64,000 nt of DNA from Bradyrhizobium sp. Ec3.3 (GTDB lineage: Bacteria; Pseudomonadota; Alphaproteobacteria; Rhizobiales; Xanthobacteraceae), in contig NZ_AXAS01000001.1 of NCBI RefSeq assembly GCF_000472925.1, positions 186,001-250,000 of the forward strand, in the 5' to 3' direction. A program made the position numbers and the translations under genes. This document shows positions 3,109 to 31,914 of the stretch, one piece after another. Numbering within the stretch: the first letter of the stretch is position 1; the number at the start of each line of letters is the position of its first letter. A model generated the notes under the pieces. That model was given only the letters and a program-made list of their open reading frames with translations. It searched no databases and had not been told where the DNA came from.

Positions 3109-4077
3109 CTACTCGGCAGCAGCTTCGGGGCGCAGCGAGCGCGGCAGCGGGAAGAACTCGTTCTCTTCCGCGGCCGATACCGTCTCCACATGCAGCGCGT
3201 AGCGCTCGGCAAAGGCGTCCATGATCTCCTCGACGATCACCTCCGGCGCCGAGGCACCCGCGGTGATGCCGAGGCTCGTGATGTCGCCGAACTTGTCCCA
3301 GTCGATGTCGCTCGCCCGCTGGGCCAACACGGCGATCTTGCAGCCCTCACGCTCGGCGACCTCGCGCAGGCGCTGCGAGTTCGACGAGTTCGGCGCGCCG
3401 ACCACGATCAGCGCATCGACCACAGGGGCCACCTTCTTCACCGCGAGCTGGCGGTTGGTGGTGGCGTAGCAGATGTCTTCCTTGTGCGGCCCGTTGATGT
3501 TCGGGAAGCGCTCCTTCAGGAGCGCCACGATCTCCGCGGTGTCGTCGATCGACAGCGTGGTCTGGGTCACGAAGGCGAGGTTGTTCGGATCCTTCGGGGC
3601 GATTGTCTTGGCGTCCTCGGCGGTCTCGATCAGGGTCACGGCACCGACCGGCAGCTGGCCGAGGGTGCCGACCACCTCGGGATGATGGGAATGACCGATC
3701 AGGAAGATCTCGCGGCCACGCTTGAAGTGAATCGCGGCCTCGCGGTGCACCTTGGTCACCAGCGGGCAGGTCGCATCCAGCGAGAACAGGTTGCGGGACT
3801 GCGCGTCGGCCGGAACGGACTTCGGCACGCCATGGGCCGAAAACACCACAGGAGCGGTTGTATTTTCCGGGATCTCAGCCAGCTCCTCGACGAAGATCGC
3901 GCCCTTCTTCTTCAACCCATCCACGACATATTTATTGTGCACAATCTCATGACGAACATAGACCGGGGCGCCATACATGGTGAGCGCCCGCTCCACGGTG
4001 TCGATGGCCCGCACCACCCCCGCGCAAAAGCCGCGGGGAGAACAAAGCACGATCTTGAGGTCTGGTTTGGCTGACAT
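3109..4077 (-). CDS. ispH: 4-hydroxy-3-methylbut-2-enyl diphosphate reductase
   Basis: The last enzyme of the MEP isoprenoid pathway, converting HMBPP to IPP and DMAPP with a [4Fe-4S] cluster. With the start at [10 protein letters not shown] it has 322 residues. The three cluster cysteines are C18 in PRGFCAGV, C104 in [11 protein letters not shown] and C203 in [10 protein letters not shown]; the catalytic glutamate is in HHPEVVG (about 134). A further 25 in-frame codons lie upstream, but that extension is arginine-rich and unlike the family, so I place the start at 4077. First gene of the leftward ispH-thrB-rnhA group. Confidence 0.96.
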
Positions 4078-4323
4078 GAAGCGATCTCGGGACCGAATCA
4101 CCCAACGGCCATTGGGCCGGGACCGGTCGATTGATGAAATAGGGCTTGGCACGGACTGCTAGGGACTTGGGCCCCCTTTCGGGCGCTGTCAAGGCACTAT
4201 CTATAGCAGAACCATTGCGTGAATGGCCCCTCACGGCTTATATAGGGGTTAATTCCCGTCATCGCTGATGACCCCCCGGTTTCGCCTCCAAAGAGGTGGG
4301 CGAAGCACAAAGGAGATTTGCCC

Positions 4324-5016
4324 ATGAGCAACGCACCTCTGATGCCCAAGGCGACCGCCGTCTGGCTGCTCGACAACACGGCGCTGACCTTCGATCAGGT
4401 CGCCGATTTCACCAAAATGCACCCCCTGGAGGTGCGCGCGATCGCCGACGGCGACGCCGCCCAGGGCATCAAGGGCATGGACCCCCTCTCCAACGGCCAG
4501 TTGACCCGCGAGGAGATTGAGAAGGGCGAGAGAAACCCCGACTACCGGCTCCGCCTCCAGGAGAGCAAGGTGGTGCTGCCGCCCCAGCCCAAGCGCAAGG
4601 GGCCGCGCTACACCCCGGTCTCGCGTCGCCACGAGCGCCCGAGCGCCATCCTCTGGCTGCTGCGTAACCATGCCGAGCTGAAGGACGCCCAGATCATGCG
4701 CCTGGTCGGCACGACCAAGAGCACGATCGCGAGCGTGCGTGACCGCACCCACTGGAACACCGCCGGGCTGACGCCGATCGACCCCGTCACCCTCGGCCTC
4801 TGCTCGCAGATCGAGCTCGATTTCGAGGTGGCGCGCGCAGCCAAGGAAAAGCCGATCGACGCAGCCTATGGCGGCGCCACCCTGCTGCCGGCCTCCGAGA
4901 CCACGAAGAAGGACGAATACGAGCCGGCGGAGAAGAGCAGCGACGACCTCAACGTCGACGCCGTGTTCGCCAAGCTGAAGACGCTCGGCGGCAAGAAGCA
5001 GGAGGAAGAGGAGTAG
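4324..5016 (+). CDS. DUF1013 protein, cell-cycle regulator TrcR-like
   Basis: The protein has 230 residues and starts MSNAPLMPKATAVWLLDNT. It belongs to the DUF1013 family, which is confined largely to alphaproteobacteria and annotated as the cell-cycle transcriptional regulator TrcR. Two helix-turn-helix-like segments are visible: AVWLLDNTALTFDQVADF near the N-terminus and AILWLLRNHAELKDAQIMRL near residue 110, the second followed by GTTKSTIASVRDR, which reads as a recognition helix. The C-terminus is acidic and charged. An AAAGGAGA at about 4310-4317 is well placed for the ATG at 4324. A strong intrinsic terminator follows at 5055. Confidence 0.85.
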   Translation: MSNAPLMPKATAVWLLDNTALTFDQVADFTKMHPLEVRAIADGDAAQGIKGMDPLSNGQLTREEIEKGERNPDYRLRLQESKVVLPPQPKRKGPRYTPVSRRHERPSAILWLLRNHAELKDAQIMRLVGTTKSTIASVRDRTHWNTAGLTPIDPVTLGLCSQIELDFEVARAAKEKPIDAAYGGATLLPASETTKKDEYEPAEKSSDDLNVDAVFAKLKTLGGKKQEEEE

Positions 5017-5054
5017 GTTGCAGCTCCTCGGCTGAACGTCGAAATCGATTCGGA

Positions 5055-5088
5055 CGCGGCGGGGCCATCCGCCGCGTTTTTGTTTTTT
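5055..5088 (+). terminator. Rho-independent terminator after the TrcR-like gene
   Basis: A perfect 8-bp GC stem (CGCGGCGG / CCGCCGCG) with a 6-base loop is followed by a T-rich run, TTTTTGTTTTTT. It lies 39 bp past the stop codon of the DUF1013 gene on the same strand. Confidence 0.9.
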
Positions 5089-5177
5089 GGGCACAGCGGA
5101 TCGCGCGGCCCCTCATTCTGAGGAGCACGGTACGGCCTTCCCGGCCATTGGCTTTCACCGGTTCAACGGCGAAAGCA

Positions 5178-5720
5178 TCACGATGTCTTCGCATCCGGAC
5201 GGCACAGCGCGTCGCCACCGCGGGCCATATTGGAAACGAACGGATACGAGCGGCGCATGACGCTGAAGTCGGCGCGACTATCACCCAGGATTTGCAGGCG
5301 CGGCGCGTCGTTGGTGCGGAAGACGCGAGCCCGGACAAAGTAGGGCTGCGCTCCAGGCGCCAGTTCGAGCTTGCCGCTCAGGCTGACAAATTCCGGTCCT
5401 TCCTTGGACTGCTTCACCCGCAAGACCGTGGCGCCGCACACCCCCTCCACCACGTTGACGCCGCACCAACCCTCTCCACAGGATGAGATGTCGAGAACGA
5501 GCTTGTCGCCGGGCATCTCGTCGACCCAGCGGCCCCCAAGCGCGAGGGCGGAAAGGTCGGACTCGGCAAGTGCCTTGCCGGCGAAGCAAACCGACGCGGC
5601 GTTTGCAACGACAAACGGTAGCGCGATCGCAGCAGCCCATCGCGCGAACATCGGCCTATGGCGACGTCCACCGCCCGCCAGGATGAAGTCGCGAAAGCGT
5701 GTCAGGAACGTGACGGTCAT
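5178..5720 (-). CDS. Exported protein of unknown function
   Basis: About 180 residues from the ATG at 5720. The N-terminus is long and basic, followed by a hydrophobic run (WAAAIALPFVVANAASVCFA) that looks like a signal sequence ending near AGKALAES. The mature part has GGRWVDEMPGDKLVLDIS and a cysteine-containing SCGEGWCGVNVVEGVCG stretch, resembling small beta-barrel periplasmic proteins of the DUF2147 type, though I cannot assign it firmly. It is transcribed leftward, divergent from the DUF2306 gene, and ends about 90 bp from the TrcR terminator. Function unknown. Confidence 0.6.
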   Translation of the reverse strand: MTVTFLTRFRDFILAGGGRRHRPMFARWAAAIALPFVVANAASVCFAGKALAESDLSALALGGRWVDEMPGDKLVLDISSCGEGWCGVNVVEGVCGATVLRVKQSKEGPEFVSLSGKLELAPGAQPYFVRARVFRTNDAPRLQILGDSRADFSVMRRSYPFVSNMARGGDALCRPDAKTS

Positions 5721-5820
5721 GGTGTATGCCTTCCAGAGTGATCCATTTGTGTCGTGCTCTCGACGAGGCGGGTTCACGCGCATGCGCCGCGACAAAGCCG
5801 CAGCGGTGAGCCACGATTCC

Positions 5821-6495
5821 ATGGAAGACTCCCCAGCAGGCTCAACCCGACCGATGAGGCGTCCCGGCATTGCAATCATGATTGCAATCGGCTTGCTGAC
5901 ATTGCCGATCGGGCTTGCGGCGGTGGCATCAGGCCTCGGCGTGCTGCGCCTGCCCTACCCGTTATTCGTCGTGCTTCAACGCCTCCCGATCATCTTTTCG
6001 CTGCACATGATCGCATCGGGCGCGGCGCTCATGATCGTTGCCCTCGTGATCCTGCTGCGGCGATATCCGGCGTGGCACCGTCCGCTCGGCCGTATCGCGG
6101 CAGGGTGCGTGCTGATCGGCGGCTTTACATCCCTTCCCGTCGCGATGGCGAGCGAGGCGAACGCGATGGCGCGCGCCGGTTTTATCGCCCAGGGGACGGT
6201 CTGGATTGCGCTGACGGTTGCCGGTCTTCTCGCGCTCAGGGCCAGGGATTTCCGGCGCCATGCGCGCTGCATGTTGGCCATGGCGGCCGTGACGTCGGGC
6301 GCAATCTGGCTGCGGCTGGCGACCACGGCAGCGGTGCAACTGATGTGGTCTTTCGCACCGGCTTACGCCTCTGCGGCCTGGCTATGCTGGCTCGTGCCGC
6401 TCTTGATTGCGATCGGCTCAACGCGTGGGCTGGCGGCCGGCCCCGGCGCGTCCCCCGATCTGGCGCGTCTTGCAAATGCCGTGAACAAAGCCTGA
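5821..6495 (+). CDS. DUF2306-type integral membrane protein
   Basis: A 224-residue polytopic membrane protein with about six to seven hydrophobic segments. The SLHMIASGAALMIVALVILL helix carries a histidine, and a PLGRIAAGCVLIGG segment follows, as in DUF2306 proteins, which resemble small heme-binding or cytochrome-like membrane domains. A second conserved-looking RRHARCMLAMAAV precedes the fourth helix. The start is uncertain: ATGs at 5782, 5821 and 5854 are all in frame. It is divergent from the exported protein at 5178-5720. No function can be assigned. Confidence 0.65.
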   Translation: MEDSPAGSTRPMRRPGIAIMIAIGLLTLPIGLAAVASGLGVLRLPYPLFVVLQRLPIIFSLHMIASGAALMIVALVILLRRYPAWHRPLGRIAAGCVLIGGFTSLPVAMASEANAMARAGFIAQGTVWIALTVAGLLALRARDFRRHARCMLAMAAVTSGAIWLRLATTAAVQLMWSFAPAYASAAWLCWLVPLLIAIGSTRGLAAGPGASPDLARLANAVNKA

Positions 6496-6504
6496 AATAC
6501 TTCG

Positions 6505-6711
6505 TCAACCCAGCTCGATCGTGTCGTCGACCTCGTGGACGAGTCCGACGCTGTCGATGGTCAGCACCATCTTCGCCTTCAGCTTCTCATGCCCCTTGAT
6601 CTTGCCGCCCGCGATCGCATCGCGCACGGCCTTCTCGATCTCGCGTTGCGAGGTGACGCCGACTTGCTTGAGGAATTTACGCAAGGACGTGTTGAACTGG
6701 TCCTCGTTCAT
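6505..6711 (-). CDS. DUF6494 family small protein
   Basis: A 68-residue cytoplasmic protein starting MNEDQFNTSLRKFLKQVG and containing VTSQREIEKAVRDAIAGGK and a C-terminal beta-rich VLTIDSVGLVHEVDDTIELG. These are the features of the DUF6494 family, whose function is unknown. A GGAGG lies 5 bp upstream of the ATG. It is the second of two small leftward genes, 25 bp after the lipoprotein gene. Confidence 0.8.
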   Translation of the reverse strand: MNEDQFNTSLRKFLKQVGVTSQREIEKAVRDAIAGGKIKGHEKLKAKMVLTIDSVGLVHEVDDTIELG

Positions 6712-6736
6712 GACGGCCTCCGTTGACCGGGCCGGC

Positions 6737-7006
6737 TTACGGCCGCTCCGGATGGTTGAGCATGTACTCGCCGAGATCGCGCTGGCGGCGATCGGCGCGG
6801 GCAGTCGCGGCGCTGCGCTGGACATCGCGGTCCTTGCGGCAAGCGACGTATTCGGGCGAGCCCTGCGCATAGCCGCGGCTCTGGCAGGCGGCGTCGTCAT
6901 CGTCGTTGCCCATCGCCACCGGCGCCTGGTTGCGCGCAGCGCAGGCGGACAGGGCCAGCGCAAGCAGAGCAGCAGTGAAAAAGCGCAACGCAGTCGTGAT
7001 GGGCAT
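6737..7006 (-). CDS. Small putative lipoprotein
   Basis: An 89-residue protein with a short signal sequence, MPITTALRFFTAALLALALSAC, in which LSAC is a lipobox, so the mature protein would be lipid-anchored at the cysteine. The mature part is short and charged (DDDDAACQSRGYAQGSPEYVACRKDRD) with two further cysteines, and ends in LGEYMLNHPERP. A GAGGA precedes the ATG. The QSRGY.QGSPEYVACR pattern occurs in other small alphaproteobacterial lipoproteins, but no function is known. Confidence 0.7.
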   Translation of the reverse strand: MPITTALRFFTAALLALALSACAARNQAPVAMGNDDDDAACQSRGYAQGSPEYVACRKDRDVQRSAATARADRRQRDLGEYMLNHPERP

Positions 7007-7077
7007 AAGGGGTCCTCGATTTGCCGGCACTCTGTAGCGCGGAATGAGGAAAATGTAAGTCCCGCAACGTGCTTTCG

Positions 7078-7176
7078 TCATGCCCCGCGAAGGCGGGGGC
7101 ATCCAGTATTCCAGAGGCCCCGAGAGACGCGGAGAGGGCGCGGCGTACAGGATTCCCCGCTTTCGCGGGGAATGAC
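7078..7176. repeat. Intergenic palindromic repeat (GCCCCGCGAAGGCGGGG type), copy 2
   Basis: The element starts TCATGCCCCGCGAAGGCGGG and has the same CATCCAGTATTCCAGAGG core as copies 1 and 3. It closes with GATTCCCCGCTTTCGCGGGG and AATGAC. It sits between the small lipoprotein gene and the 3' end of prpE. Confidence 0.75.
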
Positions 7177-23245: not shown

Positions 23246-24559
23246 ATGGCGCATCAGGACCGCTACGGGCTTCCGCTCTCCACCACATCCGATGCGGCTG
23301 CGAGCTCCTATCGCGAGGGCGTCGACCTCCTGCTCGCGGGCTGGACGGGCACTGCGGAAGCGCTGGAGCGCGCGACCGAGGCTGATCCTGATTTCGCGCT
23401 GGCGCACATTGCGCGCGCACGCGTGCATTCGTTCTATCAGCAGGGCGAGCTCGCGCGGAAGAAAGCGGGCCTGGCGCGCGAGCTGGTGGCGAAGCGCGGC
23501 ACGGAGCGCGAACGTTCGCACGTCGAGGCGCTGGCGCTCGCGGTCGAAGGGCGGATGCCCGAAGCGCTGGCCGCGACCTTGAAGCATATCGAGGCCTGGC
23601 CGCGCGATGCGGTGGTGCTGGCGCTGCCGCTCGGCGCCTTCGGCCTGTTCGCCTTCTCCGGCATGGCCGATCACGACCGCGCGCGGCAGGATCTCTGCGC
23701 ACGCGTCGCGCATCACTATGGCGAGGACTGGTGGTTCCTGACGCTCTACGGCTGGGCGATCACCGAGAACGGCGATGTTACGCGCGGCCGCGCGATCACC
23801 GAGCGCGGCTTTGGCCTGAAGCGCAAAAATGCGCATGGCGCCCACGCAGTGCTGCATGCCATGTTCGAGGACGGCTCAATCGACGAGGCGGACCGCCTCG
23901 TCGACGAATGGATCGGCGGCTATGACCGTTCCGGAATCCTGCACGGCCATATCCGCTGGCACCAGGCGCTGGGTGCGCTCGAGCACGGCAATGCGGCGCG
24001 CGCGCTCGCGATCTATGCTGACGTGCTGCAACCGTCGATGACACAGGCGCCGCCGCTCAACGTGATCACCGACGGCGCCTCGCTGTTGTGGCGCCTGTCG
24101 GCCTATGGTCACGCTGTGCCGAAAGAGCTATGGATCGAGGCCGACGCCGCCGCGCAAAAGCTGTTTCCGAAATCGAGCATCCCCTTTGCCGACGTCCACA
24201 TGGCGCTGTTCGCGGCCGCCACACAGGATCGCGAAGCACTTGCCGCGCGTCTTGCCGTCATCGAGCAGCGGCTGGCCGACGGCAAGCTGCCTGCGGGCCC
24301 CGTCGTGCCCGCGATCTGCCGGGCGTTCACGGCCTTCGCCGACGAGGATTATGCCGCCTGCGTGCGCCAGCTTGCGCCGGTTCTCAGCCAGGTCGTGCGG
24401 ATCGGCGGCAGCCATGCCCAGCGCGAGCTTATAGAGGACACTTTTATCGTCGCATTGATGCGCAGCGGCGAACTCGCGCGGGCCCATGCCCTACTCGATG
24501 CCCGCCTGCATCGCCGCCCCTCGCTGCGCGATGCGCGCTGGCAGACTGCACTCCAGTGA
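23246..24559 (+). CDS. TPR-repeat protein, TTC38-like
   Basis: A 437-residue cytoplasmic, all-helical protein that resembles the tetratricopeptide repeat protein 38 family. It has the opening DRYGLPLSTTSDAAASSYREG, the family-like DPDFALAHIARARVHSFYQQG, and a GWAITENGDVTRGRAITERG unit near residue 170. A HAHAVLHAMFEDG-like segment (AHGAHAVLHAMFEDG) is typical of the group. The ATG at 23246 has GAGGAA 6 bp upstream. It is probably cotranscribed with the aldo/keto reductase. The function of this bacterial family is unknown. Confidence 0.8.
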   Translation: MAHQDRYGLPLSTTSDAAASSYREGVDLLLAGWTGTAEALERATEADPDFALAHIARARVHSFYQQGELARKKAGLARELVAKRGTERERSHVEALALAVEGRMPEALAATLKHIEAWPRDAVVLALPLGAFGLFAFSGMADHDRARQDLCARVAHHYGEDWWFLTLYGWAITENGDVTRGRAITERGFGLKRKNAHGAHAVLHAMFEDGSIDEADRLVDEWIGGYDRSGILHGHIRWHQALGALEHGNAARALAIYADVLQPSMTQAPPLNVITDGASLLWRLSAYGHAVPKELWIEADAAAQKLFPKSSIPFADVHMALFAAATQDREALAARLAVIEQRLADGKLPAGPVVPAICRAFTAFADEDYAACVRQLAPVLSQVVRIGGSHAQRELIEDTFIVALMRSGELARAHALLDARLHRRPSLRDARWQTALQ

Positions 24560-24569
24560 GAAGTTTCGA

Positions 24570-25043
24570 TCAGGCAGCGCCGAGCCGCTGCCGTGCGCTG
24601 TCGTTGGCGTCGGTGATGCCGCTGGAGGCGCCGGCCTTGCCGAGGCCGAACGGGGGCATGCCGCTGTAGATCGCCTCATAGTCGCCGGCGTGGACCCGGT
24701 AGGTCTCGTGCCAGATGCCGACGTCGCCGCGGCTGTCCTTCAGCCGCCGGTTGAAATCGACCCAGGCCGGCCAGTGTTGCGCGTCATGCGCCCTGGCGTA
24801 GCGCTCCAGATGATCAAAGCTCCGCCAATACTGCACCATGTTGAGAAGGCCGAGCTCGGTGTGGCCGAGGAAGCCCACCTCCCTTGAGGCCTTCTCCAGC
24901 TCCTTGATCATCCTCGGCATGGCGAGCGCGACCGGCAGCCATTTGTGGAGCGCCCACGGCTTGTTGACGCGCATGCCGATCAGAAACACGACGAAATCGC
25001 CTTCGATCCGGCCGGCGACGCGGCTCGGGATGACCTTGGTCAT
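24570..25043 (-). CDS. DUF4188 family protein (monooxygenase-like)
   Basis: A 157-residue protein from the ATG at 25043 ([20 protein letters not shown]). The DUF4188 features are [37 protein letters not shown] and a [20 protein letters not shown] stretch near the C-terminus. The family is related to dimeric ferredoxin-like folds such as phenylacetaldoxime dehydratase or Dabb/ABM-type proteins. The frame is open a further 100 codons upstream, but that part is unlike the family. It converges on the TPR gene 10 bp away. Confidence 0.8.
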
Positions 25044-25303
25044 GCGAAGCCTCCCCGTAGATTTCCGGAGACACTGCCGGAGGGCGGTGGCGGCGACAAG
25101 CTTTGCCACGAAAAAAACATGGCCCTGACGGCAAGTGCGCGCCGGGTCGAGGTTGAGGCGGTTTTCGTGAATCGCCGGCGGGTGGCGCGGTGGTATTCCA
25201 GACGGGCATGTGCTTCGCACAACAAACGGGATCGCAACCAATTGGTAGCTGGATGGTTGAGGCACGGAACTTTTCCGTTTCCGCCACGCGCCATGCGAGC
25301 CCC

Positions 25304-25888
25304 ATGATGCGCCGCCGCTTCCGACCGGTTCTGGCCGCGAGCCTGATTGCTCTCGCAACTCCTTGTTTTGCCGGGTCTTCCGCCCCCATAGGAGTCAACA
25401 ACCAGGCGGAGCCGCAAAACTCCTTCATCGACCTGCTGGCGCTGATGTCAGGCCAATGCAAGACCTTGCGGATCGCGGGGCGCGAGTTCGCCTGCAAGAC
25501 GGTGGCCTACGCCCATGGTGACAAGGGCCGCGTCAATTTCGCGGTCGCGATCGACGACCCCACTGATGACAGCCACGTCGTCTCGTTCTCCGGCGAGAAC
25601 GGCAAGCGCGCCGACGACAATTCCTATGAGCTGCCGATCGACCGCATGCTGCTCAATTCCAAGGACCGGCCCAGGGTCGACGGCCTGCCGGTGCCGGCCG
25701 AGCAGATCTCCACCGGCGTCTGCCGCCAGACCGGCAATTTCGCCGCCCGGCAGGTCTCGAACATCACCTGCACGGCGACCGACAACGAAGGCCGCAGGTA
25801 CGAGCTGCTGTTCGTCTCCGACGGCACGCCGGTGAGCGTGCGCCGCGTCCGGCAGTCCTCACCGTCGATCCAGGATCCGTTCAAGTAG
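25304..25888 (+). CDS. Exported protein of unknown function
   Basis: About 194 residues from the ATG at 25304. The signal sequence is [18 protein letters not shown] with a cleavage site near CFAGSS. The mature part has [39 protein letters not shown] and cysteines in TGVCRQTG and SNITCTATD, suggesting a beta-rich periplasmic domain with disulfides. I do not recognise the family. It is the last intact gene before the mobile-element scar at 26.0-27.0 kb. Confidence 0.65.
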
Positions 25889-25998
25889 CCGGCGGACGGC
25901 CGCTTACCTGCCAAGGAGCAGGATGAGGCCCGGGACGACGATCCGCAACGTTTCGTGCTTCATGACGCCCGGTCGCTAGTTTCGGGCTCTCAGCTTGG

Positions 25999-26044
25999 GC
26001 GATCTCCGAATATTTTGAGCTGTCGCGAGCGAAGGAGTCACGAT
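25999..26044 (+). repeat. Decayed second copy of the AraC-gene leader
   Basis: Forty-six bases match 28175-28220, the leader and start of the AraC regulator gene, with four mismatches (shared: CTATTTTG/ATATTTTG, GCTGTCG, GAGCGAAGGAGTCA). At the place where the intact copy has the ATG start codon, this copy reads ACG. The sequence that follows does not resemble the AraC gene, so only the leader survives here, next to the intron/IS scar. Confidence 0.7.
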
Positions 26045-26111
26045 AGCCAGCCGGTGACAGTGCACTTAACTAGCGATTTTGCGATCTATCAGGTCGAGCG
26101 TGCACTGAGTG

Positions 26112-26808
26112 GTCGCGGTAGGGACGCGAGTTGCCTCGCGCCCCCCGCACAGATCCGCACGTGCGGTTTTCCCGCATACGGCTCTTACCTCGGGTGTCTG
26201 ACGGCGAACCGCTGGTTGGGCCAAGGATGCAGGATTTCCGGTTTGGGGAGCCACACGTCCGCGAGCTGCCTCATTTGCTCCCATCCAAGCGAGCGCCTCT
26301 GGCTGCGACGCTTCAGCGTCCGCCACCAGCCTCGAACCACCTCGTCCCGGAAGTTTGCGACCGCCCGCCTGTTGGTCGGTACGGCGTGGTAGTTGAAGTA
26401 GCCACGGATGACTCGCCTCAGCCATTTACCCTGTTCGGGGACTGACTGATGCATACGCCGTCGCAGCTCCTGCTTCACGGCTTGCAACTTCATCCGCCAT
26501 ACGATCGCGGCGGGATTTCCGCTTGATCAGGAACTTGCCCTGCCGCGACTTGCCGCAAATGAAAGTGAAGCCGAGGAAGTTGAAGGTCTCCGGCTTGCCA
26601 AGCCCGCGCCGCTTGCGGTTGTTCGCCGCAAAGCGCCCGAACTCGATCAGTCGGGTCTTCTCAGGATGCAGTGACAGCGCGAGCTCCTTCAGCCGTTCGC
26701 GCAACGTGTCGAGGAAGTACCGGGCGTCATGTTCGCGTTCGAACCCAACGACGAAGTCGTCGGCGCAACGCACGATGATCATGTCGCCCGTGGCCTCGCG
26801 CCGTCGCC
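26112..26808 (-). mobile_element. Group II intron remnant: 3' half with RT/maturase fragment and domains V-VI
   Basis: Read leftward, the fragment begins inside the reverse transcriptase at GDMIIVRCADDFVVGFE, so the palm catalytic motif YADD is CADD here. It continues through LHPEKTRLIEFGRFA and ETFNFLGFTFICGKSRQGKF. It changes frame near 26490 and continues with the maturase domain X: QGKWLRRVIRGYFNYHAVP and LPKPEILHPWPNQRFAVRHP. Just past the stop, 26151-26184 forms a 34-nt domain V (GAGCCGTATGCGGG, AAAA, CCGCACGTGCGGATC). Domain VI follows, with GGGCGCGAGGCAACTCGCGTCC and the CTACCGCGAC end near 26112. The 5' half of the intron is missing. Confidence 0.82.
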
Positions 26809-26960
26809 CACATGCCCTTTACGGCCGGGCAGAACATCCTTGATCCTGTCCCATTGATCGTCCCGAAGGGCGTAGCGGCGCATCTGTCAGCTCAGAATCA
26901 GCTGACACCCCATGAATCACGCCGCTATCCTCTTGTGAATCGCCCAATTGAGGACAGGCC
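26805..26960 (-). mobile_element. IS5-family insertion sequence, left-end fragment with transposase N-terminus
   Basis: From 26883 leftward the frame encodes MRRYALRDDQWDRIKDVLPG and RKGHVGDGA, the N-terminus of an IS5-family (IS427-like) transposase. The reading frame stops at 26779 after it crosses into the group II RT sequence. Upstream are about 77 bases that would be the element's left end: GGGCCTGTCCTCAATTGGGC, a GTCAGCTGATTCTGAGCTGAC hairpin and the transposase ATG. The end abuts CTAG at 26961, the last bases of the porin gene; CTAG-like targets are common for this family. Truncated and inactive. Confidence 0.75.
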
Positions 26961-27779
26961 CTAGTACTTGGCGACGACAGGACCACCAAATTTGTAGCTG
27001 AGGCCGATCCGCACCGTGTTGATGTTGGTGCGATCCCAAGAGAAATTGTTGCCGAAGGTTGGAAACCCAGCCGAGAACACGGAGACGTTCGGGCCCTTGC
27101 CCAAGCTGGAGTAGAGGTATTCAGCCCTCACGATCCAGTTCGCGGCGGCCATCCATTCTGCGCCAGCGCCCACGACGTAGCCCGTGTTCGAGGAAGACGA
27201 TCCCCTGAACACCGCGTCGTAGCCAGTGGAATTGCTGCCCTCGCCGAAGTAGTCCCGCTTGCCCCAAGCGACGCCACCGGTCGCATACAGGAGGACGTTC
27301 GGTGCAACGAGCACGCCGGCTCTGCCGCGGACGGTCGCGAGCCAGGACAGATTCGTTGAAATTGTCGTGAAGCAACTCGCCGCAGGAATAAAAGTACACG
27401 ACGCCGCGCCCCCAGCCGTCCAGATTGTGGTGGCACTGCTGTTCGCCTTCAGGCCTGTCCAGTCGGCTTCGATACCCACGACCGCCTGCGGCGACACCTG
27501 CCAATTATATCCGGCATGAATTGAGCCCGTCACCGAAGAGGCGCTGTTGTTGAAGACCTCATTGTCGGCCCCAAACTTAGCGCCGTTCGGAAGGAAGTTG
27601 TTCGCAACCGACGTACGCGCCCACGCGCCTCCAACGTCGCCACCAATGTAGAATCCGGTCCAGCTCGCGACCGGCGCGGGCATCGGGGCCTTGACATAGG
27701 GCCGGGCCGCGAGGTCGGCCGCTGAGGCCGATCCGGCCATCGCCGCCACCGCTATCAGCGTCAGCAAAATCTTCTTCAT
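26961..27779 (-). CDS. Omp31-type outer-membrane beta-barrel protein
   Basis: A 272-residue outer-membrane protein of the Omp25/31 (OMP_b-brl) type common in Rhizobiales. The signal peptide is MKKILLTLIAVAAMAGSAS, followed by AADLAARPYVKAPMPAPVAS and WTGFYIGGDVGGAW. Alternating beta-strand segments run to the C-terminal IGLSYKFGGPVVAKY, whose final aromatic residue is typical of barrel proteins. The ATG at 27779 is used; eight codons upstream are also open. Its last codon directly touches the IS fragment, but the C-terminus looks complete. It probably forms a pore or structural barrel in the outer membrane. Confidence 0.9.
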   Translation of the reverse strand: MKKILLTLIAVAAMAGSASAADLAARPYVKAPMPAPVASWTGFYIGGDVGGAWARTSVANNFLPNGAKFGADNEVFNNSASSVTGSIHAGYNWQVSPQAVVGIEADWTGLKANSSATTIWTAGGAASCTFIPAASCFTTISTNLSWLATVRGRAGVLVAPNVLLYATGGVAWGKRDYFGEGSNSTGYDAVFRGSSSSNTGYVVGAGAEWMAAANWIVRAEYLYSSLGKGPNVSVFSAGFPTFGNNFSWDRTNINTVRIGLSYKFGGPVVAKY

Positions 27780-28215
27780 GTCAAACCCCAAACTTTTGCC
27801 CATGTGGACGGTGCGAGCACACCATCCGTTTCTGTGTTTCGTCTATAGCTGGATCCGTCGGCACGGCTGTATCCGACCGGCGCAGATTGAGGATAGTCCG
27901 ACGAGCCTGTCGCCGTCTTGGAACGCACCGCCAATCGTTTCACCATCAGCGCCCTGCGGGCGTGACGGCGGCGCCGTGATGCAGAACGGCCACGGGCAGA
28001 AGCGCCCCCAAAGTGGTTTCAAGCGCAACGGCAAACTGAATCTGTCCGCGTCGCTCGCGGCTTGATGGCGGCGCGATCAAAGCGCGGGGAGATACCGGGT
28101 TCGCCCCGATTGGACTCCAGCGCCAAACGTGTAGATTGAGGCGATCTCCGCTGGCGCTGGCCTTTCGCTTGCGCGCGATCTCCGACTATTTTGGGCTGTC
28201 GAGAGCGAAGGAGTC
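27780..28215. promoter_or_regulatory. Divergent promoter region between the porin and the AraC regulator
   Basis: No gene is seen in these 436 bases. The part near the AraC gene has GCGATCTCCG twice, at 28141-28150 and 28175-28184, a direct repeat that could be an operator (inference), and GAAGGAG a few bases before the AraC ATG. A 66-base stretch at 28023-28088 is about 77 % identical to 30013-30078. No clear -35/-10 pair could be chosen by eye. Confidence 0.4.
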
Positions 28216-29181
28216 ATGATGCAACAAGCGGGCGCGCCGAATTTCTTCATCAACAGTTACACGGGCGCGCCGCACGGGCGCGACTACGAACGATGGCGCG
28301 AGGAATTGTGCCGGTGCATGTGCCGGGCTGACATCAAGCCGAGCGAAGGCAACAGCATCGACTGCACACTGCAGGTCAGCCTGCTCGGCGGCATCCTGTT
28401 GGCCGCCTTGAGCGGGTCGTCGGCTGAACTCTTGCGCACCCGCGAAACACTGAAGGACGGTTTCGACGGCATGTGTCTCGTCCTCGCGACGTCCGGCCGC
28501 GTGCTGGTATCGCACGAGCGACAGTCGATCGAACTGTCGGATTCGCAGATGTGTCTCGCGGACATGAGCGTGCTCTGTGGCACGGGCATCAGCAACAACT
28601 GCGAGGTCAAGACCGTACGCATCCCGCGATCCATGCTGTTGACGGTCTGCCCCGAGGCCGAGGACCGGCTGGCGCTGGTTCTTGGCGATCAAGCTCCCAT
28701 CAGAGAAGCCATCGTTCGCTACCACGCGCTTGCCGCCAATCTTGGCCCGCACACCGACGTGGTCGGCCAGCACCTGATGGCGCAACACATGGTCGATCTC
28801 GTCGCCCTGTTGCTGCGGACAGACGCCGACCACACCGAACTGGCGAACAGAGGGTATTCTGCCGTGCGGCTCGACCTCATGCGCGCCGACGTCATCGCCA
28901 ATCTGAGCCGGGGTGATCTGACGATCTACTCGGTCGCGCAGAATGCGGGCGTTAGCCCGCGCCATGCCCAGCGCATGTTCGAACAGACGGGAACCACGTT
29001 CACCGAATTCCTCCTCGAGCAGCGCCTGCTGCTCGTGCGCAAGCTGCTCCTCGACCCTCTCAACCGTTGGCGCAAGGTCAGCGACCTCGCCCATTCAGCG
29101 GGATTTCCCGACATCTCCTATTTCAACCGCGTGTTCCGACGGCGGTTCGGCGTAACACCGTCCGACATGCGCGGCGTTTGA
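28216..29181 (+). CDS. AraC-family transcriptional regulator
   Basis: A 321-residue regulator with an N-terminal effector domain of the AraC-binding-like type (about residues 20-190) and a C-terminal double helix-turn-helix. The second domain begins MRADVIANLSRGDLTIYSVA, has the first recognition region AGVSPRHAQRMFEQTGTTF, and ends with the AraC signature SDLAHSAGFPDISYFNRVF and RRRFGVTPSDMRG. The effector is unknown. GAAGGAG stands just before the ATG. It is divergent from the porin gene, which is a plausible target, and a decayed copy of its leader lies beyond the porin and scar. Confidence 0.9.
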   Translation: MMQQAGAPNFFINSYTGAPHGRDYERWREELCRCMCRADIKPSEGNSIDCTLQVSLLGGILLAALSGSSAELLRTRETLKDGFDGMCLVLATSGRVLVSHERQSIELSDSQMCLADMSVLCGTGISNNCEVKTVRIPRSMLLTVCPEAEDRLALVLGDQAPIREAIVRYHALAANLGPHTDVVGQHLMAQHMVDLVALLLRTDADHTELANRGYSAVRLDLMRADVIANLSRGDLTIYSVAQNAGVSPRHAQRMFEQTGTTFTEFLLEQRLLLVRKLLLDPLNRWRKVSDLAHSAGFPDISYFNRVFRRRFGVTPSDMRGV

Positions 29182-29240
29182 GAGAAGCATCGATCAAAGC
29201 GGCAAAGGTCGGGTTCGGTTGGAAGTTCGGACGTCATCGA

Positions 29241-29684
29241 TCAGAAACTCCGCAACAACGGGGTCGCCATGCCGGTATCGGACACCATCTTGAAATCTGG
29301 AAACCGCGTCAGCAGCGCCTCTCTCAAAAAGCGGAAATGCTTGATGTTCTGCGACAGCTGCCCCAGCCGGAGCCGACCGTCTGAGATTTCCGTGTCGAGC
29401 AGATTTTGGTGATGAATATCGAGCGAATCACGGGTCACATACTCGTCGACGTCGTTGCCGCTCGTCACCGCGGCGCGCGCCAGGACATCATCAATTCGCA
29501 AACTGACCGTCGCCCGTTCGGCTTCGGCCACAGAGAGCGCGTCATCGATCGAGCGGACGATCGAGGCAACGCACAGAAAATCCGTCTCGACGTCGCACAT
29601 CATCAACCGCATCACCCTCTTGAAGCGAATCGCATCCAACCTTCTGGCCAGGCGTACGAGAACATCCAATATGCGAATTATCAT
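29241..29684 (-). CDS. Hypothetical protein
   Basis: A 147-residue, mostly helical, charged protein starting MIIRILDVLVRLARRLDAIR. It has stretches such as ADVETDFLCVASIVRSIDDAL-like helices and SLRIDDVLARAAVTSGNDV, and ends RFPDFKMVSDTGMATPLL. No signal peptide, membrane segment or family motif was recognised. It converges on the AraC gene 59 bp away. The reading frame is open further upstream to 30005, but that part lacks coding character. Confidence 0.5.
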   Translation of the reverse strand: MIIRILDVLVRLARRLDAIRFKRVMRLMMCDVETDFLCVASIVRSIDDALSVAEAERATVSLRIDDVLARAAVTSGNDVDEYVTRDSLDIHHQNLLDTEISDGRLRLGQLSQNIKHFRFLREALLTRFPDFKMVSDTGMATPLLRSF

Positions 29685-30066
29685 TGCGTCACACCATTGC
29701 GTCCGGTTGAGCAGCCGCGCTGAAGTGGGAGCGGAATCCCGCTCGCCAGCGCGACATCGCTGACTTCGTATTTGCAGCTGCGCGGTTCGCCAGGCAAATC
29801 CGCACCACAAGCCCGCGTCCTGCAACGGATCCGGGATATTCTGCATCGCGACCAGGCGATCCGCCGTAACCAGCCAAGCGGGGCTCAATCGTTCCGAGTT
29901 CCTACCGGGCTGGAGGCTCAATCGTCTAGGAACTGAACGGCAAACGTTCAGCCGGTCACGACAGGCAGTCATCTTGGTAAATAGATGATGCTGGCAACCG
30001 TGCAAATTGCACGCGCAACCACAGACTGAATCTGCTCATGTCGCTCGCCACCCGATAGCGGCACGA
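29685..30066. other. Gene-free stretch with partial repeat
   Basis: No credible coding region is seen. The right end (30013-30078) is the second member of a 66-base repeat also found at 28023-28088, and it runs into the stop codon of the acyl-CoA ligase at 30067. A TGCAAATTGCA palindrome lies at about 30001-30011. The rest shows nothing I can interpret. Confidence 0.4.
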
Positions 30067-31914
30067 TCAAAGTGCAGGAGGCGCCGGCCTCGGCGCCAGC
30101 GGCGGCTTCCTTGCATATACCTGCTCGATCTCCGCGGCGAAGCGATGCTCCAGCGCGGGGCGCTTGTTCTTCAGCGTTGGTGTCAACAACCCCGCCGCGA
30201 TCGTCCACGGCTCCAGCGACCACGACACCGCGCGCGGCGTCGCATAGGCCGGATAGTCCTTCACGGCCGCGGCGATCCGCGCGAGCAGAGCGGCACGCTC
30301 CCCGCCCTCGCCCTGCTTACCGAGCCCTGCGAGCCTCTGTTGCTCCTGCTCCCACGTCTTGGCATTGAGCACCACGAAGGCCGTGAGGAAAGGTCGCTGC
30401 TCGCCGATCACGAAGGCCTGCTCGAACAGGGGATCGGCAAGGATCGCGGTTTCGAGATCGACTGGCGCAATCTTCTCGCCGGTGGAGGTGACGAGGATGT
30501 CCTTGATGCGGCCGGTGATCGTGATGCGGCCGTGCTCGATGCGCGCCTGGTCGCCGGTGTGCAACCAGCCATCGGCCTCCTTGACGCGGCGCGTCTCCTC
30601 CTCCCGGTGCCAATAGCCGAGCATCACGCTCGGGCCGCGGACGAGCAGCTCATCCTTGTCGCCGAGCTTGACCTCGATGCCGTCGAGGACGTGGCCGACC
30701 GAGCGCGGGTCGTTGTCCTCGGCGGTGTTGACGGAGACGACCGGCGAGGTCTCGGTCATGCCGTAGCCTTGCAGGACGTCGAGCCCGAGCGAGAGAAACA
30801 GGCGGATGACCGGTTCTGCGATCGGCGCACCGCCCGAGACGGCGACGCGCAAGCGCCCGCCGAACTGTGCCAGCACCTTGCCGGCGACGCGGCGCTTCAG
30901 GATCGGCCAGGCCAGCTGGTCGAACAGCGAGAGCGAGCGCCTCCCCTGCCGCGCGTCAAAGCGCCGGCCGCCGACGGCAAGGGTGAAATCGAACAGCGCG
31001 CGCTCGGCGCGGCCGGCCGCTTCACGGTGCTGCATGATCAGCGCAAAAATGCGCTCATAGATCCGCGGTACTGAAATCAGTACCGTCGGCTGCACATGCT
31101 TCAAGTCCTGGGAGAGCTGCGGCACCGAACGCGCATAGGCGACACAGGCGCCCGCCGCGATCGGATAGTAATAGCCGCCAGTGCGCTCGAACGTGTGCGA
31201 GAGCGGCAGGAAGGAGAGGAAGACATCGTCCGGCTCGGCGGCGATGCGCCGCGCGATCGCCTTCACATTCGCAACGACGTTGCCATGCGACAGCATCACT
31301 CCCTTCGGCCGCCCGGTGGTGCCCGAGGTGTAGACAATGGCGGCGAGATCATCTGCACGGACAGCAACGTTGGCCATCGCGGGACCGCCGGCCACAGAGC
31401 CGAGCCAGCGATCGAGCGCGATGACGCGGGCGTCAGTCGGCGATGCCTCTGAAAAACTCGCGCAGACGACGCGCGCGAGACACGGGACCGGCTGCCCGGT
31501 CGCGACGATCGCCTGCCAGCGCTCCAGCGTATCCACGAACAGCAGGCGGGCGCCGGAATCGCCGAGGATGTAGGCGATGCTGTCGGGGTTGTCGACGGCG
31601 TGCATCGGCACCGGCACGAGACCGCGCGACAGTGCCGCCTGGTCCATCGCGACATGCGCGAGGCCGTTGGGCATCAGGATCGCGACCCGCTCACCGGCCG
31701 CCAAACCCTCAGCGGCGAGCGCCCGGCGCCAGCGGTCGAACTCGGCGTCAATCTGTCGCCAGGAATAGCTCGCCCAGCGTCCCGCCGTCGCATCGTATTG
31801 GCGATAGGCCTCCCTGCCCGGCGTCAAGGCCACGCGCCAGCGCAGCAGCTGCGGCAGCGTCATCACCTCCGCCAGCGTCGGCGGGACATCTTCCTCAGTG
31901 ACGTGCTCTGCCAT
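30067..31914 (-). CDS. Long-chain acyl-CoA synthetase (AMP-forming)
   Basis: A 615-residue ANL-superfamily ligase like mycobacterial FadD15 or eukaryotic long-chain synthetases. The ATP-binding loop is YTSGTTGRPKGVMLSHGNVV (about residue 200), followed by FLSFLPLSHTFERTGGYY, the GYGMTETSP motif, and GWLHTGDQARIEHGRITITG with the hinge GRIKDILVTSTGEKIAP. It should activate fatty acids to acyl-CoA at the membrane. The C-terminus is proline-rich (APRPAPPAL). Compared with PrpE in this window it lacks the WWQTETGW motif, which supports a long-chain substrate. Single leftward gene. Confidence 0.9.
   Translation of the reverse strand: MAEHVTEEDVPPTLAEVMTLPQLLRWRVALTPGREAYRQYDATAGRWASYSWRQIDAEFDRWRRALAAEGLAAGERVAILMPNGLAHVAMDQAALSRGLVPVPMHAVDNPDSIAYILGDSGARLLFVDTLERWQAIVATGQPVPCLARVVCASFSEASPTDARVIALDRWLGSVAGGPAMANVAVRADDLAAIVYTSGTTGRPKGVMLSHGNVVANVKAIARRIAAEPDDVFLSFLPLSHTFERTGGYYYPIAAGACVAYARSVPQLSQDLKHVQPTVLISVPRIYERIFALIMQHREAAGRAERALFDFTLAVGGRRFDARQGRRSLSLFDQLAWPILKRRVAGKVLAQFGGRLRVAVSGGAPIAEPVIRLFLSLGLDVLQGYGMTETSPVVSVNTAEDNDPRSVGHVLDGIEVKLGDKDELLVRGPSVMLGYWHREEETRRVKEADGWLHTGDQARIEHGRITITGRIKDILVTSTGEKIAPVDLETAILADPLFEQAFVIGEQRPFLTAFVVLNAKTWEQEQQRLAGLGKQGEGGERAALLARIAAAVKDYPAYATPRAVSWSLEPWTIAAGLLTPTLKNKRPALEHRFAAEIEQVYARKPPLAPRPAPPAL

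Follow-up and report, generated by a model that had tools for sequence, protein, structure and literature searches.

In Sinorhizobium meliloti, the group II intron RmInt1 sits in an element of the IS630 family, according to the available excerpts of PMC4496777 and PMC5894124, and the excerpt of the latter also describes FRE652, a rhizobial intron remnant that keeps DI-DIII and part of DIV. Here we describe a scar of about 850 bases behind an outer-membrane protein gene of Bradyrhizobium sp. Ec3.3, within a stretch of 64,000 nucleotides (hereafter the window; positions 186001-250000 of contig C1 of a 10.03-Mb draft genome), that resembles FRE652, as presented in that excerpt, in being a decayed intron piece in a rhizobial genome. 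In contrast to FRE652, it keeps the 3' part of the intron and has lost the 5' part, and its broken end is fused to an insertion sequence (IS); a remnant with a surviving 3' end is thus the opposite of the decay published in the excerpt (PMC5894124). Rhizobial intron remnants have already been described, and the scar is a new instance, real but ordinary genome debris, that leaves the general view unchanged. It is a clear example, in a rhizobial-type genome, of neighbouring mobile elements lost through what was probably a deletion destroying both. The minus strand was read over 28500-25000, and the features discussed below are as follows.

26037 to 26107, minus strand: host DNA forming the 3' flank of the intron, 92% identical to congener G017
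26112 to 26186, minus strand: group II intron domains V and VI with an intact 3' end (Rfam RF00029, Intron_gpII)
26185 to 26806, minus strand: remnant of the reverse transcriptase (RT)/maturase gene, with CADD for YADD, a 1-base frameshift at about 26500-26493 and a stop at 26187-26185
26779 to 26883, minus strand: cut transposase reading frame of 34 codons, with its TGA (26781-26779) inside intron sequence
26805 to 26808, minus strand: join between IS and intron, placed by ungapped alignments and BLAST end points
26806 to 26961, minus strand: left end (156 bp) of an IS5-family element, with terminal repeat GGGCCTGTCC and the start of the transposase gene
26961 to 27803, minus strand: outer-membrane beta-barrel protein gene (open reading frame; OMP_b-brl, E 1.6e-15), ending ...GGPVVAKY

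The IS part shares with IS5-family elements of the NF033580 type (transpos_IS5_3) the terminal repeat GGGCCTGTCC, the flanking TA and the transposase N-terminus, but only the first ~156 bp are kept, without the right end and without the DDE domain. The left repeat is exact (26961-26952, minus strand), while GGGCCTGTCC, with up to one mismatch allowed, does not occur on the plus strand of 26000-26961; of the two terminal inverted repeats that mark an IS5 element, the scar has only the left one. The identification of this part in the original prediction as an IS5-family left end is nevertheless supported by similarity to IS5-family elements, the three best relatives being 89-90% identical. The 34-residue reading MRRYALRDDQWDRIKDVLPGRKGHVGDGARPRAT matched DUF4096 (IS4/5 transposase, E 0.0047) and NF033580 (IS5 family transposase, E 0.0059), both under curated cut-offs, whereas in L006, a relative, the complete first frame scores above the cut-offs of both models. 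A query of the IS end (window 26795-26975, minus strand) matched nine of 195 genomes, own genome counted, at 75-90% identity in the others (best other match 90%, E 1.7e-56). Seven plasmid records were found with the IS end, the best about 72% identical over 92% of the query, and no join was present among the matches listed. L006 has a complete element of 846 bp: GGGCCTGTCC stands at either end, TA precedes each copy on its own strand, and there are two overlapping frames, the second containing the DDE transposase domain. Both IS ends are also present in L007; in L008 the bases before the IS end compared are TAG rather than TA. Separately, the plus strand of 26902-26931, within the IS end, carries a sigma-70 promoter-like site (9 of 12 positions); 25800-28300 holds two such sites, compared with a shuffle mean of 0.5.

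The intron part occupies the minus strand from about 26805 to 26112 and comprises half of the RT, the maturase region, domains V and VI and an intact 3' end. It thereby shares its RT and maturase parts, domains V and VI and 3' end with bacterial group II introns encoding an RT/maturase (TIGR04416; RF00029), but lacks domains I-III and the RT front, and its RT frame is broken. The RT part matches RVT_1 (E 2e-7), the maturase domain GIIM scores 20.1 bits, under the cut-off of 23, and RF00029 is matched at 26186-26112 with 48.9 bits against a gathering score of 40, so that domains V and VI are recognized together with the 3' end and the earlier assignment to the 3' half of a group II intron stands. 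Domain V, put at 26151-26184 in the original prediction, was confirmed, although the fold gives 26185-26151, and domain VI folds at 26149-26114; a 79-nt piece containing both has a predicted energy of -45.5 kcal/mol (z -5.0), equalled by none of 200 shuffles. In the predicted domain VI fold U26120 and A26119 are unpaired, and the latter presumably occupies the position expected for the branch-point A.

The coding part of the remnant is decayed. When it was compared with the full-length frame of L039, the RT homology was found to begin mid-protein at RRREATG, a few residues ahead of GDMII; the original start of the RT at GDMIIVRCADD was therefore right about CADD and slightly late about where homology begins. 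An intact RT/maturase frame with YADD is absent, the front being gone, YADD replaced by CADD and the frame shifted. The TAA at 26187-26185 need not be nonsense damage and may be natural: of the 17 relatives that were readable out of 19 loci tried, three have a stop at this codon, too, and the other 14 read W. Domain I with the 5' end (GTGCG) is likewise missing from contig C1, in which the 5' part of L039 has no match; we therefore rejected the idea that the intron is split or circularly permuted and that its 5' half lies close by. In the whole own genome, the 5' part of L039 matches only contigs C38 and C109 and 47 bases of C146. Judged from its sequence, the remnant would be unable to splice alone, and neither splicing nor mobility would be expected of it.

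Over the whole remnant, the best relative is L039 in genome G194 (79%), a complete intron of 1908 bp running from GTGCG to CCGCGAC and sitting in an apparent palindromic repeat of short length. It encodes an RT of the group II RT/maturase type (TIGR04416, E 6e-113) whose closest solved relative by sequence is the GsI-IIC RT (E 8e-42). Other copies of the intron part in the own genome are 69-73% similar, except for 90 bases at 92%. These 90 bases, around domains V and VI, belong to a 641-base group II intron on contig C109 (L025 2718-3358) that has the 5' GTGCG and the 3' end, has lost most of its RT frame, and has a 3' exon (CACTC) similar to that of the window remnant. On contig C38 there is a longer related intron, whose RT frame stays open through YADD. 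Of the 12 intron 3' ends compared, six (L042, L043, L044, L045, L046 and L047; a 13th row, L049, was a chance pattern match and is left out) have similar 3' exons, as if these introns sat in a repeated target.

Neither element is thus complete, as had been predicted: the IS lacks its right end and the intron its 5' part, and the intact elements sought in relatives were found as the complete IS in L006 and the complete intron in L039. The two remnants meet without unassigned DNA between them. IS copies at 86-90% identity have BLAST end points at 26807-26805 (those of one 80-81% genome stop at 26800), and alignments to other introns start at 26811-26806, mostly at 26808, and run to about 26113-26108. 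A gapped running-identity profile placed the join at 26809-26800, which was too permissive, and we used ungapped comparison instead. In the ungapped alignments the IS relatives follow the window sequence down to about 26805 and diverge beyond, while intron relatives diverge before 26808-26806 and agree after. The join therefore falls inside both coding sequences, as originally proposed, with the earlier interval of 26800-26808 narrowed to 26808-26805. The four bases there, GGCG, also occur in L006 among the IS relatives and in L042, L044 and L046 among those of the intron; intron relative L039 has only two of the four, and IS relatives L007, L008 and L014 are without GGCG at the join. A chimeric in-frame protein was ruled out, transposase and RT being in different frames.

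We found this join in no genome but its own. A 301-base query across it matched 21 of 100 genomes (own included), and all matches listed except the own one were one-sided; a 2.8-kb query matched 262 of 265 congeners (own included), and among the matches listed, which were the best by E-value, only the own genome spans the scar. A degenerate join-spanning pattern had no matches in a contig collection that may omit the own and near-identical genomes, and a 1-kb scar query against plasmids returned 4315 records, none over 80% of the query and none with the join among the matches listed. A conserved composite element, which would have contradicted the original prediction, was rejected, as none of these searches showed the join in another genome.

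Congener G017 has a syntenic site with neither element. The 71 bp beyond the intron 3' end are 92% identical to G017 (among 265 genomes, eight other congeners match only 22-41 bases), where the counterpart (L080 7463-7535) has an outer-membrane beta-barrel gene (end 7689) on one side and an autotransporter gene (3862-7095) on the other, the latter followed by an NYN-domain gene and then a second outer-membrane gene. The two sides of this G017 segment match window 23703-25998 and 27915-30828, the second including an AraC-family gene (28216-29181). Neither IS nor intron is present at the G017 site, window 26112-26961 having no match in L080. Since the 3' flank is syntenic host DNA that in G017 is free of both, the likeliest target of the intron was host DNA close to the IS rather than the IS itself. 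On the other side, the TAG stop (26963-26961) of the window's outer-membrane protein gene consists of the target TA and the first G of the IS, and TA adjoins the IS ends in relatives too.

The scar was, in our judgement, probably formed by two separate insertions followed by one illegitimate deletion, the fewest steps that account for all parts. The outer-membrane protein gene would have received an IS5-family element at a TA at its stop codon; a short distance downstream, and in the same orientation, a group II intron would have inserted as a separate event. One later deletion, joined at up to four shared bases, would then have taken the back of the IS, the intervening DNA and the front of the intron, killing both elements; the RT carries further damage. 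The loss would come to roughly 2 kb, namely about 690 of 846 bp of an L006-like IS, about 1.2 of 1.9 kb of an L039-like intron, and the spacer, to which about 150 bases correspond in G017. The order of events, the single deletion and the joining by microhomology are our reconstruction. The original prediction had allowed deletion or recombination between two mobile elements, and a 3' flank of host DNA, not IS DNA, favours deletion between neighbouring insertions. Deletions made by an IS into adjacent DNA begin at an IS end; here the deletion starts inside the IS, so that the IS itself is unlikely to have made it.

Several observations count against this reading. We found no relative that carries the two elements intact at this place, so that we infer the ancestral state; bases 26107-26111, at the start of the 3' flank, align uncleanly to G017; and identity between the window's outer-membrane protein and the two of G017 is no more than 32-35%. 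The TAG before the L008 end and the further breakpoints nearby, described below, belong here as well. The outer-membrane gene query matched 257 of 265 congeners, among the matches listed mainly over its first 150-190 bases, and these matches included no copy of the 3' end of the gene that is free of the IS.

Among the alternatives, the intron may have arrived already truncated at its 5' side, through reverse splicing, incomplete reverse transcription and joining of the cDNA end into the IS. Incomplete target-primed reverse transcription leaves a precise 3' end and loses the 5' side, which is the form of the remnant. However, the IS is cut at the same join, so that IS and intervening DNA would have been lost anyway, and a single deletion explains both losses; we regard a truncated arrival as unlikely. 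It is very unlikely that the intron was nested in the IS, like RmInt1 in ISRm2011-2, with an internal deletion joining the two. The precedent of RmInt1 in an IS630-family element (excerpts of PMC4496777 and PMC5894124) and the similar exons at half of the 3' ends compared, suggesting a repeated target, speak for nesting, but the 3' flank matches IS-free host DNA of G017, and no IS right end follows the intron in the search for GGGCCTGTCC described above.

A highly improbable reading is that the outer-membrane protein gene now uses the scar as its 3' untranslated region, with the IS providing the last base of the stop codon and the strong domain V/VI hairpins ending or protecting the messenger in place of a lost terminator. 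A scan of 25800-28300 found no intrinsic terminator in the scar, the sole terminator-like site (shuffle mean 1.9) falling within the outer-membrane gene. Finally, an assembly chimera of two repeats is scarcely credible, for although this is a draft genome of 154 contigs and repeats are the usual place of assembly errors, neither part at the join, IS end included, has a second close copy in the own genome, and the site lies inside a 484-kb contig, flanked left and right by G017-like DNA.

Relatives differ from one another in this region beyond the scar as well. In G247, window 25892-30100 has no counterpart, and about 26 bases separate the two aligned sides. Further breakpoints lie at 25998/25999 and at about 26037-26044, joining pieces from two places of the G017 layout, and so point to more than one rearrangement in the neighbourhood. 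Positions 25999-26044 and 28175-28220 form a 46-base direct repeat (91%), the second copy of which covers the start of the AraC-family gene at 28216, and the first copy matches G017 only at the start region of that gene. In addition, a leader of about 100-200 bases is repeated (window 27910-28126; L080 7220-7435, 3177-3273 and from 8554 on) upstream of genes for outer-membrane proteins and autotransporters that neighbour the AraC-family gene, as though they were under shared control.
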